56,308 nt of DNA from NCBI GenBank assembly GCA_029262275.1, contig JAJCZS010000045.1, positions 1 through 56,308 of the forward strand. Direction: 5' to 3'. The stretch is from Deltaproteobacteria bacterium (GTDB lineage: Bacteria > Desulfobacterota_D > UBA1144 > Nemesobacterales > UBA2774). This document shows, piece after piece, positions 17,269 to 28,538 of this stretch (positions are counted from its first letter, which is position 1; each line of letters opens with the position of its first letter). The notes beneath the pieces are model-generated. The model worked only from the letters and a program-made list of their open reading frames with translations. It did not search any database and had not been told where the DNA came from. The position numbers and the translations under genes are program-made.

Positions 17269-17324
17269 AATGTAGTAAAATGATTCGAGCTGAAAACAAA
17301 TTTGTTTTACATAGGAGCCTCAAG

Positions 17325-18320
17325 ATGAAAGCAATTCGTTACCATGAAGTTGGAGAGGTTGATGTGCTTAAATATGAAGAAGTGGACATGCCTGAGATAG
17401 GAGACGATGAAGTTCTAGTACGTGTTAGGGCAGCCTCGCTTAATCATCTAGATTTAAGACTGAGAGCTGGAAAATCCCCTCGACCTGTAGAATTGCCTCA
17501 TATTGGTGGTGTTGATGCTGCTGGGGATATTGAAGCAGTAGGAAAGAATGTAGCGGATTTAGCTCCTGGTACTCGAGTTGTTGTAGATCCTACCATAAAA
17601 ACACCAAAAGGACCTTCTGTTATGGGAGTGAATTTTTATGGAGGTTTCGCCGAATATCTAAAGATTCCTGCTACAAATGTTGTACCTATCCCCGATGAGG
17701 TCTCATATGACGATGCGAGCACTTTGCCAATCTGCTATGTGACCGCTGCGTATGGACTATACGACAGGGGCGGGCTCCAAAAAGGTGAAACTGTTCTTGT
17801 ACACGCTGCAGGCAGCGGAACAGGAAGCGCTGCTGTGCAGGTAGCAAAGGAAGGCGGGGCTACTGTTATAGCAACAGCAGGAAGTGACGAGAAGCTTGAG
17901 AAGGTGAAAGAGATAGGGGCTGATGCAACAATAAATTATAATACGCAAGACTTCGCAGAAGAAGTTAAAAAGATAACTGAAGGAAAGGGCGTAGATCTCA
18001 TCTTTGATCAAGTGGGTGCTTCTGCTTGGGACAACAATCTGAAATCTGTTAAAGCAAAGGGAAGAATTCTTCTTGTTGGGGTAGTTGGCGGAGGTCAGAC
18101 GACATTTAATTTTGGCCCTGTAATTATGAGAGACTTATCAATTCTAGGCGTTACGGTTTTTAATGCTCCAAGACAAAGTTTAATTAATGCAATCAATCTG
18201 GTTTCCAAAAATGGGGTAAAACCTGTAATAGATAAAACATTTCCTTTATCTGAGGCAGCACAGGCTCAAAAAATGCTTGAGGATAGAAGTCAGTTTGGAA
18301 AGGTTATTTTAAATCCGTAA
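17325..18320 (+). CDS. MDR-superfamily quinone oxidoreductase / alcohol dehydrogenase-like protein
   Basis: NAD(P)H-dependent medium-chain reductase. It shows the N-terminal GroES-like fold (MKAIRYHEVGEVDVLK), a PHIGGVDAAGDIEAVG segment and the nucleotide-binding VLVHAAGSGTGSAAVQVAK. The catalytic zinc Cys position is replaced (SLNHLDLRLRAG), and no structural-zinc Cys cluster is seen, so it belongs to the zinc-free quinone oxidoreductase branch. The ATG at 17325 is preferred over 17280 because AGGAG lies just before it. It is a single-gene unit; the substrate is unknown. Confidence 0.82.
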   Translation: MKAIRYHEVGEVDVLKYEEVDMPEIGDDEVLVRVRAASLNHLDLRLRAGKSPRPVELPHIGGVDAAGDIEAVGKNVADLAPGTRVVVDPTIKTPKGPSVMGVNFYGGFAEYLKIPATNVVPIPDEVSYDDASTLPICYVTAAYGLYDRGGLQKGETVLVHAAGSGTGSAAVQVAKEGGATVIATAGSDEKLEKVKEIGADATINYNTQDFAEEVKKITEGKGVDLIFDQVGASAWDNNLKSVKAKGRILLVGVVGGGQTTFNFGPVIMRDLSILGVTVFNAPRQSLINAINLVSKNGVKPVIDKTFPLSEAAQAQKMLEDRSQFGKVILNP

Positions 18321-18326
18321 GTTTGT

Positions 18327-19802
18327 TTAGCCTAGGAATTTTTCAAATGTTTTGAGCAAATTGGTTATGTCTGGATCTCCAAGTTCATATTCTTGAGATA
18401 TGACTTTTGTGGAGGTCCTTCCTCCAGTTTCCCAGATCTTGTACAGAAGATCGCTGGCTTTTTTGTTTCTCCACCACTGCTCATCGTAATTATCTATCAA
18501 AAAAGCCCTAAGATCCGTCTCACTCATAGTTGCTCTAAATTCATCCAGTGAGCTTAGGTGGGGCTGAATGTTGAACAAGTAATCCTTGGCGTCAATTTCA
18601 CAATGAGTAGCAATCTCCATTATCTCTTTATACATTTCAGCTTTATCTTCTTGTCTTTGGTATAGACCAGCTTCAAATATCACTTTGGCCGAGAGAACTC
18701 TGATCTGTAGAAGTCTTCTTAAATACAGAAACTTGAGAAAGTCGTTGTCAGCGTCGATCTTTAAATGCTTATTGAGCCAACTAGGTTCAAATATTAGATT
18801 CTTAAATAACTGGGCGAATATTTTCAAAAATGACTTTTCTCTCAAATAAGCAAATTCAAAATAATCATCTCTGTCGGTGAATCCATAACTAAGGCACTCT
18901 CCAAAAGACCCGAGGAAGGATTCATGATCTGAAACACTGCCAATAAGATTTGTGGAGATTAACATTTCAACACCCGGGTTTGAAATGTATGGAAAGCTTC
19001 CTATGATATGTCCCTTTCTTTTCTCTGAGTCGAATTTTATGGTAGCAGGCAGATTAATTTTCATGCCATCTAAAATTGCTTGAGCCATAGAGTGAGTTTT
19101 TAATTTAGGAAAGAGTTCCTTTAGCTCAAATGAATTAATAAGATAGAACAGGTCTGTTGTGCTTACATCTTTAAGCTTGAGATCCATTCGCTTAAGGGCG
19201 AACCATGTAAGCAAATCTCGTGAAATATATTCTGTGTCCCTTATGAATTCCTTTGCTTTTTCTACTAGATCCACAGAGCTATGGTCCTTGGTAAACTCAT
19301 GTAAATCTAAATAACTCGAAAAGCCAAGGTCATGAGAATCCTTTTGTAAATAGGCATACTGTCTTAAATAAAGCTGGTTTAATTTTGATGATATGTTGTC
19401 CCTTTTCTCTTCAATCTCTTGGGTCTCTTGTTTCTTGGATTTTTTAAGCAGAGCTTTTCCCGATGCTCTAAAGGGGACTTTGGTTTTGCCTACTGTAAAT
19501 ATGGATGAGGCTTCAAGATCTAATATCCCATCTTCTATTTGTGAAGACTTGCTAAGAAGAATGGTTTCGGCCAGGAACTCCAGCATCAGTCTTATGCCAT
19601 TTCCCTCTTCCTGGGTGTTAGATGTAATACTTTTTAATGACTCAAAGATCTCAGGTTCTAAAAGATCCCGGAAGGACTTAAGAATTTTTGTGATTTCTGT
19701 TTTGCTCTTTTGTCCCGAGTGGTTTAAATATAGCTCGCTTTTGAGGGCTTGATAGAGCGCTTGACCTTCTTCTCTGACCAATCGTATTGTTTCTGTGCTC
19801 AT
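18327..19802 (-). CDS. degenerate M3-type peptidase-like protein (no HExxH)
   Basis: A 491-residue, largely helical soluble protein. Its C-terminal ~230 residues follow the order of M3/oligoendopeptidase-F proteins: an EKRKGHIIGSFPYISNPGVE block, GSVSDHESFLGSFGECLSYG where active enzymes carry HExGH (residues ~285-305), and FLKIFAQLFKNLIFEPSWL where the third zinc ligand normally sits. All three zinc-ligand positions appear replaced (HEFGH read as GSFGE, and the later Glu lost), so it should not be a zinc protease. A scaffold or inhibitor role is possible but unproven. No ribosome site is visible before the ATG. It is convergent with the neighbouring oxidoreductase. Confidence 0.6.
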   Translation of the reverse strand: MSTETIRLVREEGQALYQALKSELYLNHSGQKSKTEITKILKSFRDLLEPEIFESLKSITSNTQEEGNGIRLMLEFLAETILLSKSSQIEDGILDLEASSIFTVGKTKVPFRASGKALLKKSKKQETQEIEEKRDNISSKLNQLYLRQYAYLQKDSHDLGFSSYLDLHEFTKDHSSVDLVEKAKEFIRDTEYISRDLLTWFALKRMDLKLKDVSTTDLFYLINSFELKELFPKLKTHSMAQAILDGMKINLPATIKFDSEKRKGHIIGSFPYISNPGVEMLISTNLIGSVSDHESFLGSFGECLSYGFTDRDDYFEFAYLREKSFLKIFAQLFKNLIFEPSWLNKHLKIDADNDFLKFLYLRRLLQIRVLSAKVIFEAGLYQRQEDKAEMYKEIMEIATHCEIDAKDYLFNIQPHLSSLDEFRATMSETDLRAFLIDNYDEQWWRNKKASDLLYKIWETGGRTSTKVISQEYELGDPDITNLLKTFEKFLG

Positions 19803-19835: not shown

Positions 19836-21098
19836 TTATACTGAGGAATCAATTTGAACTGGTTTTTTTGTTGGTTTCTTTAAAAAGAATGTTCCAAATG
19901 CAGCTATGTAGGCACATATTATGGCGAATAAGAAAGGATAGTAATAGCTGCCTGTTAAATCAAAAACATAACCTGCAAGAATTGGAGCACTAATTGCTGC
20001 TATGGAATAGGAAGTGCCGAATATTCCGTAGATTGTGCCCATTGCCTTTAATCCAAAAAACTTTGCCAGCACTGTTGGGAAGATTGGTATACAAGCGCTG
20101 TAGAAGAATCCGAATAATAAGCCGAATAGATAAAATGCCCAGATTTGATCAAATGTGAGAAGCAGTATGATCGAGCTTCCCTGAGCAAGTAGACAGACAA
20201 ACAGAACCTTTCTGTATTCTAATACCTCGGATAATAAAGAAGTGAGAACTGTCCTTCCAATTATGCTGCCCAAACCTATAGCCGCAGGTGGACCTGCAGC
20301 AGCTAGTGCTGAGATATTCAAGTCAATTTCAAAGTTGTAAAATTGAGTAACAATTATTAAGAATGTGATAAATGCAAGTGCGAACATAACATACATAATC
20401 CAATAATATGGAGTCGATATTGCCTCAAGAGCCGTCCAGTCTTGGTTCTTGCCATTCGAATTTGTACCATTTGCTGAGGTATTCTCGTCATCAAGGTCCT
20501 CTTCTCCATAGGGTTTTAAGCCTATATCTTTTGGATATCCTCTCATGACAAATGCGGCTAGTAAAGCAATGAACATGATTGCCCCTAAGGCAATAAAAGC
20601 GCTGTTGAGGCCTAATTTGTTAACAAGAGTTGCTGTAAGGGGGTTGGTTAATAATCCACTTAATGGAACTCCTGTTGTGATAATTCCAATTGCCAAAGCC
20701 CTCTTTTTCGTAAACCACCTGCTAACAACTGCAACGCAAGTAATATATAAGACCGTGTCTCCTAGTCCTACAAACACGCTGTAAAACAATATTAACTGCC
20801 AAGTGTTTTCAGCAAAGCCTGAGAGTATCATCCCTAATGCGGCTAATGCTCCCCCACCAAATATTACAAATCTGGGGTCGTATTTATCTATCAATCTGCC
20901 AGCTATAATGAACCCTGGAGCTGCAATTAAAGCCCTATAAGAAAATAGAGCAGACCCTTCGGTTCGTGTAAGACCAAATTCATCATTAATGTAGGGTAAG
21001 AAAACTCCGAAGGAATAGAGCAGGAGACCATCGAGAATAATAATTAACAGTGAAGCTGCTACTATGTACCAGCCGTAATATATCTTTTTGCCGAACAT
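19836..21098 (-). CDS. MFS transporter (OFA/monocarboxylate-like)
   Basis: Twelve-helix major facilitator carrier. The start FGKKIYYGWYIVAASLLIIIL and SFGVFLPYINDEFGLTR are typical of the oxalate/formate and monocarboxylate-type branch, and a GRLIDKYDPR loop follows helix 2-3. A polar loop (Asp/Glu/Asn/Ser-rich, residues ~200-222) separates the two halves. An organic acid is the likeliest substrate. AGGAAA lies before the ATG. The HEAT-repeat gene lies 132 bp upstream in the same direction. Confidence 0.85.
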   Translation of the reverse strand: MFGKKIYYGWYIVAASLLIIILDGLLLYSFGVFLPYINDEFGLTRTEGSALFSYRALIAAPGFIIAGRLIDKYDPRFVIFGGGALAALGMILSGFAENTWQLILFYSVFVGLGDTVLYITCVAVVSRWFTKKRALAIGIITTGVPLSGLLTNPLTATLVNKLGLNSAFIALGAIMFIALLAAFVMRGYPKDIGLKPYGEEDLDDENTSANGTNSNGKNQDWTALEAISTPYYWIMYVMFALAFITFLIIVTQFYNFEIDLNISALAAAGPPAAIGLGSIIGRTVLTSLLSEVLEYRKVLFVCLLAQGSSIILLLTFDQIWAFYLFGLLFGFFYSACIPIFPTVLAKFFGLKAMGTIYGIFGTSYSIAAISAPILAGYVFDLTGSYYYPFLFAIICAYIAAFGTFFLKKPTKKPVQIDSSV

Positions 21099-21230: not shown

Positions 21231-23669
21231 TTATCCACCAACCTCATTAATTTTGACGCTTATTGTTTCCGCTTCATCCTTGAAACCGTTTGCTACAAGG
21301 ATTTCTTGCGCTTTTCTAAGATTTGCTACATTGTCCTTTGACCAATTACCCTTACTAGATACCTCAGATATGGCCGCCACAAGTTCATCTCTCATTTCTT
21401 TTCTTGATTCCGTGAAATCCCAGCTTTCTAAGAGAATATTTAGGGTCTGCTCACTGTTTTGAATATCTGCTTCTGAAACAGTTTTCTTGGCACTTTTTCC
21501 CAACCAAGAGATCAAGATTTCTGATTCTTCATCTCCACCAGCAACCTGGTGAGCGAGAACTCTCAGCTTTGTTGTATCTGAAGGAAACTTATATGTGGAA
21601 GCAAGAATCAATAGAACTGTATTGTTATGTAGAGGCGCCATCTTTTCTAAAGTATAAAATGCATTTGAGCGGACATTATCGTTTGTTCCCAATAGAAGTT
21701 GAGCCACAATTGGGCCTTGTTCATTTGCTGCATTGCCCATTATGCCTAGTGTCTCTAGACCCCCTACTATTTTGACTCTGTTAGTCCTTGGGTCTTGGCT
21801 GAGATTCTTTATATACGTCCCTATCTCTGCTGATTGGTCTGTTGCTTCAGGTCCTAATTCTCCCAATGCTTTTGCTGCGCTTCTGTTTACAAGCTCATCA
21901 GGATCCTTCAAAAGACTTGCAACTTGAGGTGCATATATGCTGGCTGGAGGCCCGATTTGTCCAAGAGCTTGAGCGGTTCTAGAGCGAACTTTTTTATCTT
22001 CATCATCCAAAAGAGCTGCAATCTGTGCTATCTGATCATCATTTAGGGATCCTATCTTAGCCAAAGCATACGCTGCATCACCGCGAACATCACGGTCATC
22101 GTCACTTAGAAGAACTACAATATTTTCAACTTGCTCGGTTGCGTGAGGACCCATATTTCTTAAAGCTCTAAGACTTGAAGAACGGATTACAGGATTATTG
22201 TTTTTTAGTAATTCTTCTAATTTAGGCAGTGCTGGCTTGGCATATTCTCCAAGTTCTCCTAATGTGTAGCTGGCTATACTGCGATATTTGCTATTGTTAT
22301 TTGATAATAGCTCGACAATTAGAGGTATTTGTGGAGTAGCTTTCTCACCTGCTATTGCTAACGTCTGAGAAGCTCTTACACGAATTATGTCATCATTGTT
22401 CTTAAGCAGTTCGACAAGTGTATCAGTATAATCTCCAATTGGGTCTTCCATTTTTCTAATTGCACTCATTGCATTTAGTGCAACTTTTTTATCAGGATCT
22501 TGAAATAATTTAGCTATATTCGGAGCTTGAGCTATCCCGGCATCTCCCATTTTAGATAGTGTGTTTATTGATAGTGCTTTAATATCAGGATCCGGATGTT
22601 CTAGTAGAATTGCAACGTCAGGGGCTTTCTCCTTAGCTTTTTCACCAATTTTGCCAAGTGCAAACAATGCTCCTTCTTTTGCATTAATTTCAGGATTTCT
22701 CAATTCCAAGGCAACCATATTTATAGCTTCGCTGTTGGTCTTTCCTATATTGCCTAGAGATTCTGATGCCATTTTTCTAATTGATATATTTTTATTTGTT
22801 AGAAAACCAATTACCAGTTCTATTTGTTCATTATTTATTTCACCCATTTTTCCTAGTGCTTGTATAGCGGCAATTTTAACAAACAGATCAGAGTCGTTGG
22901 TTAATTGCGCTACTTGGTTAGTATAAGATTTGTCAGAAGGCCCGAGATCACCTATTGCTCTTACTGCGTTAGCTCTTACCCTATGGTCACTATCACTAAG
23001 GAGTGGAAGAATAGACTTTATATTGTTTTGGCCCGATTTTCCCAATTTGCCCAAAGCTGTAACTGACGAGGCTCGAACTTGTGGATCTTCATTTTTTAAT
23101 AATTGCAAGATTTGAGGTATTTCTTTTGTGGAAACCTCTGGATTGTTCTGAATTATAACTATAGCGCTCTGTCTAACTCTGCTGTCTTTATCACTTAAGA
23201 GTTCAATTATTTGAGAACCTTGATTTTCATTTAGGTTTTTGTATTCAGATAGTGCTTTGGCTGAGAAATACCTTGCTTTTACATTCTTACTGCTTAGGTT
23301 ATCAATTATTAACTGAGCGCTCTCGGGAGTTAGTTTGTCCATATTGACTACAGCATTTGTAGCCGCTGCTTTGGTGTAGATGTTTTTAGCTTTTATGAAC
23401 TCAAGAATCTGAGGCAGGGCAGGGCCATAATTTGCTTCCGATAGCTTGTTTATAGCATTTGCCTGCACTTTAGGATCGCTATCATTAAGAGCAGACAGAA
23501 GACCATCCACTTGAGACGCATTAACTTCTTTAACAGTCTCATCTGAGAAAGAATCAAGAGTATGGATCGATAAATTTACTAGAATTGCAAATAGGAATAA
23601 TTCTAATACGAACTTTAATCTAGTTCTCTTATATCTTGAAGGATTTATGAATCTCTTAAAATAGTACAT
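21231..23669 (-). CDS. membrane-anchored HEAT-repeat protein
   Basis: A long array of HEAT/PBS-lyase-type helical repeats (812 residues). After a basic segment and one hydrophobic helix (residues ~23-40, a signal anchor or uncleaved signal), about 17-20 repeats of ~35-39 residues run to about residue 690. Each has the pattern DxxVRxxAxxALGxLG (for example DPQVRASSVTALGKLG). The last ~110 residues are non-repetitive and charged. The fold suggests a protein-binding solenoid outside the cytoplasmic membrane; no enzyme motif is seen. The ATG at 23669 is chosen over 23699 because a GGAG site lies a few nt upstream only of the former. Confidence 0.82.
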   Translation of the reverse strand: MYYFKRFINPSRYKRTRLKFVLELFLFAILVNLSIHTLDSFSDETVKEVNASQVDGLLSALNDSDPKVQANAINKLSEANYGPALPQILEFIKAKNIYTKAAATNAVVNMDKLTPESAQLIIDNLSSKNVKARYFSAKALSEYKNLNENQGSQIIELLSDKDSRVRQSAIVIIQNNPEVSTKEIPQILQLLKNEDPQVRASSVTALGKLGKSGQNNIKSILPLLSDSDHRVRANAVRAIGDLGPSDKSYTNQVAQLTNDSDLFVKIAAIQALGKMGEINNEQIELVIGFLTNKNISIRKMASESLGNIGKTNSEAINMVALELRNPEINAKEGALFALGKIGEKAKEKAPDVAILLEHPDPDIKALSINTLSKMGDAGIAQAPNIAKLFQDPDKKVALNAMSAIRKMEDPIGDYTDTLVELLKNNDDIIRVRASQTLAIAGEKATPQIPLIVELLSNNNSKYRSIASYTLGELGEYAKPALPKLEELLKNNNPVIRSSSLRALRNMGPHATEQVENIVVLLSDDDRDVRGDAAYALAKIGSLNDDQIAQIAALLDDEDKKVRSRTAQALGQIGPPASIYAPQVASLLKDPDELVNRSAAKALGELGPEATDQSAEIGTYIKNLSQDPRTNRVKIVGGLETLGIMGNAANEQGPIVAQLLLGTNDNVRSNAFYTLEKMAPLHNNTVLLILASTYKFPSDTTKLRVLAHQVAGGDEESEILISWLGKSAKKTVSEADIQNSEQTLNILLESWDFTESRKEMRDELVAAISEVSSKGNWSKDNVANLRKAQEILVANGFKDEAETISVKINEVGG

Positions 23670-23761
23670 TCTTTCTCCGTGTCCCAAATTTTCTATCAAA
23701 ATAAATTATTTTATAAGATATTACCCTAGGGGTGGCAATTGTACCTCTATATTATTTATTA

Positions 23762-26954: not shown

Positions 26955-27023
26955 AGTCTCTTATGTATCTTATGTCCCCAAATTATATTTGCATCTTAAG
27001 AGCTTTTTTTGGTCAGAACTTCT

Positions 27024-28538
27024 ATGATAAGAATATGTAGTTCAATATTAATTGTTTTAATTTTGTCAGGATTAGTAAATCCTTCCTTTGCGGATGATGA
27101 TATAGAAATTCGCGATCTCTACTATAACGAATACAGAGAAAACTTGCTTCGGGGCAGATTCAATGATCCCGTAGAGCAAGATAGAGTTTTAGGTCCAGTT
27201 CCTAGAGAGCAGGAATTAGGTGTAAACGAATTTCTTCGTGATACCGCAATTGCCTATACCGCCCAATGGGCTGGAAGATGGTTCTATGTAAGGAACAAAA
27301 ATAGCCGTATATTCGACACCTCCTTTTCTAAGTGGTGGGATAATATCAGCCAGTGGCCCGAGTTTGATGACGGGGATAACTTTTTTACTAATCTTGTGAC
27401 ACATCCTATAATAGGTTCTCTGAACTTTTTATACTATAGAGAGATGGGCCATAGCTTTTGGGTCTCGGCTATAGGCTCTGTGGTGCAAAGCACGCTTTTT
27501 GAATACACCATTGAGGGTCTAGTAGAAACTCCTTCAGGGTCTGACCTCATTTTTACTCCACTTCTTGGCGTTCCCCTTGGTTATGGAATGGAGAAAACAT
27601 CCGACTGGCTTGAAGACACGGGTTTTGTTCCGGCAAAAATCTTAGCCTATATAATAAATCCAATGAAAAATTTTATTCATGACAGACAAGTAGGAGTTAT
27701 TAATCCATTCTCAAAACAGTTTATGTCTGTTAGTGGCCCCATTAATTTCACGTCTAATAAGACTGAAGCAATTGATCTAGCGTATTCATTCAACCTTGAA
27801 TCACCTATACCGACTGGAAGATTTATTGGTGATATTCAGATTGTTAATGTAAAAGAAGACTTGGGTGGAGAATTTATTTTTTATTCTCTCAGGGCAGATG
27901 TTCCCTCGGCTGATAATAGATGGGGAATTTATGTCAAGATTGCACAATCTGGAGTCAATGCCGTATCTGTTGGTGATGATAATATTAGTGACGGTTTTGA
28001 GTTTGCCAATGTGTTAGTTGGTGGGAAGCATGTTATAACCCAAGGGCCAAATTACGCTCTAACTGGGGGAACAAGTCTTGTCCTTCCAACAGCGTTTAAA
28101 GATAATATAGATAGATTGCAAACTGTTTTGAAGTATAGAAAGAATTTTCCTATAAACCTGCAATCAGCTTGGACTGTAACTCCATATCTCTCGGGAGCTC
28201 TTTGGGGAGACATCTTCAATATAATGGCAAATGTATCCACAGACTATGTTTTTAATGCCAGCAAGCTTGAGGGAAATGATTTTGAATTTAGAGTGAATTA
28301 TGGCGCTGCGTTTGGAGCTAATATCCCCGTAATTGCATCTCCTGTGATATTTGTAGAATTTGATGGTTACTCACTTTTAACATCTGATACAGAGGGTAAA
28401 ACCAGCACTTTTGTTTCCTCAGGTGTGCGCCTAGGTAGAAAGTTCAGCCCAGGGTTTGGCATCCAGGTTCCCGTTTCTGGACCAGATAGCGACGTTTCTA
28501 AACTTAGTTTCTTCGGTGATTTCCAGGTCCGTTTCTAA
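27024..28538 (+). CDS. DUF3943 outer-membrane barrel-like protein, copy 1
   Basis: Exported protein of about 504 residues. A clean signal peptide (MIRICSSILIVLILSGL to a PSFA cleavage site) is followed by a DUF3943-type block: FSKWWDN, HPIIGSLNFLYYREMGH, GSVVQSTLFEYTIEGL, ETPSGSDLIFTPLLGVPLG. The rest is rich in alternating beta-strand patterns and ends in FQVRF, a terminal Phe typical of outer-membrane barrels. Function is unknown. The ATG at 27024 opens the signal peptide; a TTG at 27009 is less likely. It lies 130 bp from a paralogue in the same direction. Confidence 0.78.
   Translation: MIRICSSILIVLILSGLVNPSFADDDIEIRDLYYNEYRENLLRGRFNDPVEQDRVLGPVPREQELGVNEFLRDTAIAYTAQWAGRWFYVRNKNSRIFDTSFSKWWDNISQWPEFDDGDNFFTNLVTHPIIGSLNFLYYREMGHSFWVSAIGSVVQSTLFEYTIEGLVETPSGSDLIFTPLLGVPLGYGMEKTSDWLEDTGFVPAKILAYIINPMKNFIHDRQVGVINPFSKQFMSVSGPINFTSNKTEAIDLAYSFNLESPIPTGRFIGDIQIVNVKEDLGGEFIFYSLRADVPSADNRWGIYVKIAQSGVNAVSVGDDNISDGFEFANVLVGGKHVITQGPNYALTGGTSLVLPTAFKDNIDRLQTVLKYRKNFPINLQSAWTVTPYLSGALWGDIFNIMANVSTDYVFNASKLEGNDFEFRVNYGAAFGANIPVIASPVIFVEFDGYSLLTSDTEGKTSTFVSSGVRLGRKFSPGFGIQVPVSGPDSDVSKLSFFGDFQVRF

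Follow-up and report, generated by a model that had tools for sequence, protein, structure and literature searches.

A predicted pseudopeptidase of the M2/M3/M32 superfamily encoded next to an MFS transporter gene in Dadabacteria

Introduction

The closest described systems to the protein reported here are the metallopeptidases of families M2 (ACE), M3 (thimet oligopeptidase, neurolysin, Pz peptidase and oligoendopeptidase F) and M32 (carboxypeptidase Taq). The protein shares the order of conserved blocks with all three families, and its whole-length fold resembles those of M2 and M3, but its 491 residues contain no HExxH, no third Glu ligand and no active-site Tyr. Unnamed bacterial relatives, of which L085 is an example, belong to the same subfamily but have kept the active-site residues.

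Inactive homologues of ACE have been described in animals and include ACE3, four ACE-like proteins of Drosophila and ACN-1 of Caenorhabditis elegans (PMC1925091). The present protein has in common with them the fold class, the loss of zinc-binding and catalytic residues and the retention of the gene (PMC1925091). However, the animal proteins belong to M2 proper, and ACE3 has lost only the catalytic Glu (HQxxH), whereas the protein studied here is bacterial, apparently cytosolic and without the whole centre. A further point of reference is ACE2, an active, membrane-anchored peptidase. This protein, which has the ACE fold, is also the obligatory partner of the amino-acid transporter B0AT1 (PMC8194517), and the pair is a functional analogy for the linkage to an MFS transporter described below, where a contact is proposed from gene order.

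The table of metallopeptidase pseudoenzymes in a 2024 review covers families M1, M12–M16, M24 and M41 and contains none from M2, M3 or M32 (PMC11266112). A search of the literature by title and opening of the abstract found no inactive bacterial member of M3 or M32, and the relevant passages of a paper on Dadabacteria genomes mention peptidases in general terms (PMC8115339). The known dead peptidases are mostly those of animals, fungi and organelles, and the case described here lies in a bacterial branch of the M2/M3/M32 superfamily.

Results

The Gene and Its Product

The window, the whole stretch of 56,308 nucleotides that was analysed, is contig C45 of a 2.48-Mb Dadabacteria genome. The gene and the parts of its product that are discussed below are as follows.

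18327..19802, minus strand: predicted pseudopeptidase gene, 491 amino acids; ACE/M3 peptidase fold, zinc site absent, no Pfam family over its cut-off
18897..18911, minus strand: GSFGE, residues 298–302, in place of the HE-x-GH of intact relatives (column alignment with 26 intact relatives)
18822..18824, minus strand: K327, in the column of the third-ligand Glu/Asp of intact relatives (alignment)
18540..18554, minus strand: residues 417–421, with S417 and E421 in two columns that are 88% and 96% Tyr among intact relatives (alignment)
18468..18485, minus strand: D440-E-x-W-W-R445 block, which hardly varies among the Dadabacteria proteins (at 440, 441, 443, 444 and 445 the entropy is close to zero)

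The frame starts with ATG and its translation runs through 491 codons without a break, as the initial annotation had read it. Searches of the protein against Pfam, NCBIfam, PADLOC and the sequences of the PDB gave no match beyond chance level; the lack of a PADLOC match led us to reject a role in a defence system. When the PDB was searched with the orthologue alignment, a single unrelated chain was returned (E 1.6). A mixed alignment of intact and dead members (A2) gave an M32 carboxypeptidase as the best match (E 0.0045) and ACE chains from E 0.026, so these matches do not choose between the families. The protein has no long hydrophobic stretch (the highest mean over 19 residues is 1.09) and is therefore predicted to be soluble.

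Fold and Family Placement

An AlphaFold model of the window protein, built from the 23-row orthologue alignment (A1), has a mean pLDDT of 92.4 and a pTM of 0.92. The top Foldseek matches of the model are Pz peptidase A, testis ACE and thimet oligopeptidase, with E values near 1e-8, and the matches to ACE and M3 structures span residues 1–491. Superposition with VIA-align gave a Z of 26.1 for the C-domain of ACE (9gbm_A; rmsd 3.4, 483 residues aligned) and of 25.2 for Pz peptidase A (rmsd 3.7, 469 residues aligned). Since these Z values are tied, the fold points to the M2/M3 superfamily and does not choose a family within it. M32 is absent among the fold matches listed, which excludes nothing. 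A model of the intact relative L085, obtained by the same procedure, has a pLDDT of 95.9, and ACE is the best of the 50 matches listed for it (Z up to 27.5).

Profile comparisons lead to a similar placement. The profile of the family matches that of the intact relatives with an E of 8.8e-88, a similarity that, like the structural match, chance could not produce, and hhalign, using alignments of 4, 12 and 30 rows, gave the combined family values of 98.0% for M2, 97.9% for M32 and 97.2% for M3 (95.6% without row L026), as compared with 0.2% for an unrelated MFS control. The M3 models themselves are not reached: the window protein has no match to PF01432 at E ≤ 1, one of the 23 orthologues has a Pfam M3 match (E 0.0062) that falls short of the curated cut-off, and L085 scores 20 bits against PF01432, where the cut-off is 27, and matches TIGR02289 with an E of 3.4e-10, far under its cut-off. 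The initial annotation had proposed a free-standing, catalytically dead peptidase of the M3 type. A peptidase fold predicted over the whole length, together with the purifying selection described below, bears out the free-standing pseudo-enzyme, and the comparison with known structures that the annotation recommended finds both ACE and M3 structures that match along the entire chain of 491 residues. M3 as a definite family was given up, because M2 and M32 profiles score equally well and M2 and M3 are tied by fold. With the three families tied by profile and the M3 models below cut-off, the proteins are best filed, on their sequences, as a branch of their own within the M2/M3/M32 superfamily that is not clearly M3.

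The Catalytic Centre

The segment DHESFLGSFGECLSYG comprises residues 292–307 of the window protein. Within it GSFGE aligns column for column with the HELGH of intact relatives, so that Gly, Ser and Glu stand where His, Glu and His would be expected; this substitution and the missing later Glu ligand had both been recognized from the sequence at the outset. The residues in the ligand and catalytic columns are G298, S299, E302 and K327, and the combination of HExxH and a third Glu that defines M3 and M2 is absent. The flanking blocks keep the order of the family, again as first described, with IKFDSEKRKGH...NPGVE corresponding to ITFDTEPRPTK...VPDQV before the site and EPSWL to NPLWL after it. 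In the intact relatives, columns 417 and 421 presumably hold the transition-state tyrosines, with the role that these have in ACE and neurolysin. The protein thus combines homology to active peptidases, loss of the catalytic residues and retention under selection, and is, as far as aligned residues can tell, a pseudopeptidase without a zinc site of the family type, from which the ligands, the catalytic Glu and the active-site Tyr have all gone.

Orthologues in Dadabacteria

A match to the gene was obtained in 23 of the 60 near relatives searched, and all of these 23 belong to four families (f1–f4) of the order to which the window belongs. No match was found in families f5–f7 of the same order or in f8, a small-genome family of the same class; within f1, it was not found in 2 of the 15 other genomes, G012 (59% complete) and G013 (80% complete). 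None of the 23 matches contains an inner stop, and at least three of them are cut by contig ends. Pairwise dN/dS is 0.119–0.28 in 10 of 12 pairs, dS being saturated in both pairs that include the window gene, and 44 columns have an entropy below 0.3 bit across the order. The family is under purifying selection.

H-E-H is present in none of the 22 orthologues that cover the motif. The second His is replaced in all 22; the first His is kept in three and the catalytic Glu in three, and rows L011 and L021 retain HE. Six of 21 rows retain Glu as the third ligand, which together with the HE in two rows indicates that degradation has been uneven. The initial annotation had suggested asking whether the ligands are always lost and the pocket conserved. 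A full set of ligands is indeed lacking throughout, but the pocket at the old active site is not conserved: over 20 full-length rows, the entropy of columns 298, 302 and 327 falls at the 86th, 94th and 89th percentiles, which makes them some of the most variable positions, and their replacements are patternless. The Tyr columns have drifted as well (417 at the 67th and 421 at the 77th percentile), and column 268, which is Arg in 85% of intact rows, is at the 84th percentile in the Dadabacteria rows. In the same 20 full-length rows D292, E294 and G301, on the same helix as the old site, are invariant. The drift of the catalytic columns while D292, E294, G301 and W443-W444-R445 stay constant argues that selection keeps something other than the old metal site.

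Relatives Outside Dadabacteria

A search of 386 genomes with the orthologue profile gave matches in 52, of which 23 are in the order of the window and 29 outside it. The stretches around the 29 outside matches contain 33 homologous frames, this being every frame found in the stretches that were fetched; L114, L115 and L117 are remote members of the set, and L115 and L117 have M3 matches of their own. HE-x-GH and a third Glu or Asp are kept in 26 of the 33, the site is lost in six, and one (L111) does not cover HExxH. The full site in these 26 frames indicates that its absence from the window family is a real loss. Intact relatives keep H, E, H, E/D and R127, and mostly both Tyr; the nearest of them in score, L085 (genome G153), has an intact HE-x-GH and is 26% identical in sequence. 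A structural match exists, and intact homologues occur in other lineages, not among the orthologues, so neither finding that was to have counted against the initial annotation was obtained.

A bootstrapped tree of 52 rows groups the Dadabacteria proteins in a single clade (support 100/99), and on it the intact and lost states imply five changes. A tree of 85 rows, made by a quick method that gives no bootstrap, implies at least seven, with six forced by the starred branches. It adds frames from further genome searches and 16 stretches picked by hand, and 21 rows (duplicates, fragments and remote rows) were dropped; because the hand-picked stretches are mostly weaker-scoring matches, its 22 lost and 43 intact rows do not represent a frequency. 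Taking regain of lost ligands to be unlikely, we count about 11 separate losses, a number read off the printed tree rather than computed. Motif variants in other dead rows include HLLGM, SALGR, GAWGE, HEMGV and HQMGH, and G30, D217, G301, R368 and W443 are kept in intact and dead rows, as expected for residues required by the fold. No transitional forms were found in four genomes of the phylum to which the nearest intact relative belongs or in four genomes of the G150 order.

Two other orders contain dead forms. All four genomes of the G150 order have one (L203–L206, with SALGR, GALGR, NASGR and AACGR), and in the two loci examined (L102 and L104) the gene is near one for a protein with a SurA/rotamase domain. 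In the G231 order, where large genomes are common, there are mostly two copies, and many of those sampled have no zinc site and have lost it in different ways; examples are L112 (3940–5577, minus strand), L116 (2990–4468, plus strand) and L227–L235, with motifs such as HELGA, GAVGQ, HEMGV, GAWGE and HQMGH.

Gene Neighbourhood and the MFS Transporter

The neighbours of the gene in the window are listed here.

19836..21098, minus strand: MFS transporter gene, directly upstream of the pseudopeptidase gene with a gap of 33 bp (adjacency and family comparison)
21231..23699, minus strand: HEAT-repeat protein of 822 amino acids, upstream of the MFS gene; synteny holds in family f1 loci only, not in f2–f4
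17280..18320, plus strand: quinone oxidoreductase (PIG3-like) gene, convergent, often the downstream neighbour; outside the unit

In all 19 loci in which this could be tested (18 relatives and the window), the same MFS gene immediately precedes the pseudopeptidase gene and shares its strand; four further pseudopeptidase loci end at a contig edge. The gap between the two genes is 26–290 bp, and in 3 of the 19 loci it is 216–290 bp, which leaves room for a separate promoter. The nearest named families of the transporter are L-lactate and oxalate-formate transporters, both below their cut-offs. The MFS gene is present in 52 of the 60 Dadabacteria genomes, including lineages that have no pseudopeptidase, and the transporter therefore does not need the pseudopeptidase in general. 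Other genes follow it in the genomes without the pseudopeptidase (14 stretches examined). Residues 185–233 of the transporter, which we take from MFS topology to be the cytoplasmic loop between TM6 and TM7, correspond to 45–51 residues in 20 carrier genomes as compared with 38–43 in 14 non-carriers. The longer loop may reflect a co-adapted contact, but it also fits common ancestry, since the carriers may all come from a single lineage. Outside Dadabacteria, neighbours were tabulated for 10 loci, from intact or dead relatives, and none of these neighbours is an MFS gene.

Within the genus of the window the pseudopeptidase is 60–68% identical, as compared with 81–85% for the MFS transporter, 85–89% for the oxidoreductase and 51–57% for the HEAT-repeat protein, which outpaces its neighbours (81–90% for most others). 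The HEAT-repeat gene was considered as a constant part of the unit and rejected, because it adjoins the MFS gene in f1 loci and not in those of f2–f4. In several f4 loci the gene after the pseudopeptidase encodes a histone-deacetylase domain, identified as PF00850 in L127 (7058–7885). Elsewhere in the window, positions 27009–28538 encode a DUF3943 protein of 509 amino acids with relatives in other Dadabacteria loci, and a frame of 449 amino acids at 101–1450 on the minus strand has no Pfam match at E 1e-5.

Discussion

The zinc-binding and cutting residues are gone, yet the gene is intact beside the same transporter gene across the group, which makes it probable that the product is a binding or helper protein. 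We consider it likely that it is a cytosolic, metal-free pseudopeptidase retained for binding and not for catalysis. On this reading its ancestor was a zinc peptidase of the subfamily that is still present in other bacterial lineages, and the site was lost once, before families f1–f4 diverged. The complete two-lobed fold of the ACE/neurolysin type that is predicted for the protein has been kept since then for a non-catalytic job. Binding would take place not through the old metal site but through surfaces that are invariant in the clade, for which the candidates are the start of the helix at D292-Y-E294, the group Y192/D196/W200, N223-S224-x-E226 and D440-E-x-WWR. The upstream MFS transporter, of monocarboxylate type, would be the partner, and the pseudopeptidase would assist or regulate it as a subunit bound on the cytoplasmic side. 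On the evidence of gene order this transporter, or its regulator, is the likeliest candidate partner, although we put it forward only tentatively.

The initial annotation had also proposed that the protein is kept for binding, as a peptide sensor or scaffold. The pseudo-enzyme part of that proposal stands; the linked MFS gene and the patches conserved in other parts of the protein suggest a surface other than the old centre. As a sensor or sponge for peptides or small ligands, the protein would bind uncut peptides in the cleft between the lobes, and the complex would signal or act as a buffer. The intact predicted peptidase fold would suit such a role, and pseudo-active sites are known to bind partners in Tma108, Ebp1 and HIP on Shh (PMC11266112). 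However, columns 298, 302, 327, 417, 421 and 268 vary freely, and the drift of the old catalytic and Tyr columns makes sensing of peptides through the old centre less likely; we regard this role as possible but not probable. It is unlikely that the protein serves an active M3 peptidase of the cell as its dead counterpart, in a heterodimer or as a decoy, comparable to α-MPP with β-MPP. Inactive/active pairs are known from the M16 peptidase MPP (PMC11266112), and the genome does encode two M3 peptidases whose motifs are intact (HELGH and HEAGH), but their genes are on other contigs (C14 and C7) and belong to a different branch of the family, and M3 peptidases are present in 60 of 60 genomes, with or without the pseudopeptidase.

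It is distinctly improbable that the protein has been repurposed as an enzyme, with a putative new non-peptidase site formed from D292, E294, D440, E441, R445, Y192, D196, N223 and E226. In Dadabacteria these polar positions change little or not at all, and several of them carry other residues than in intact relatives, but W443 and G460 are conserved in intact and other dead relatives as well, and conservation of this kind may be structural. Decay of a functionless gene, to which evolution faster than that of most neighbours (60–68% identity within the genus of the window) might point, is hardly credible and is in the main ruled out by open frames (no inner stop in 23 matches) and purifying selection (dN/dS 0.12–0.28, and the 44 columns below 0.3 bit).

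Retention for binding in partnership with the transporter has a wider counterpart that we offer as speculation and think rather unlikely to hold in full. There would be an unnamed, widespread bacterial family with the ACE fold, its role partly or wholly non-catalytic, in which the zinc site has disappeared repeatedly and independently but the fold has stayed, and the zinc-free version in Dadabacteria would be the cytosolic subunit of a monocarboxylate-type MFS transporter and a counterpart of ACE2-B0AT1. The constant link to one transporter gene provides a concrete, testable partner. Annotation by fold or similarity alone would mislabel such proteins as peptidases. Because it contains both intact and dead members and has lost the site repeatedly, the family represents a natural experiment on the keeping of peptidase folds that do not cut.
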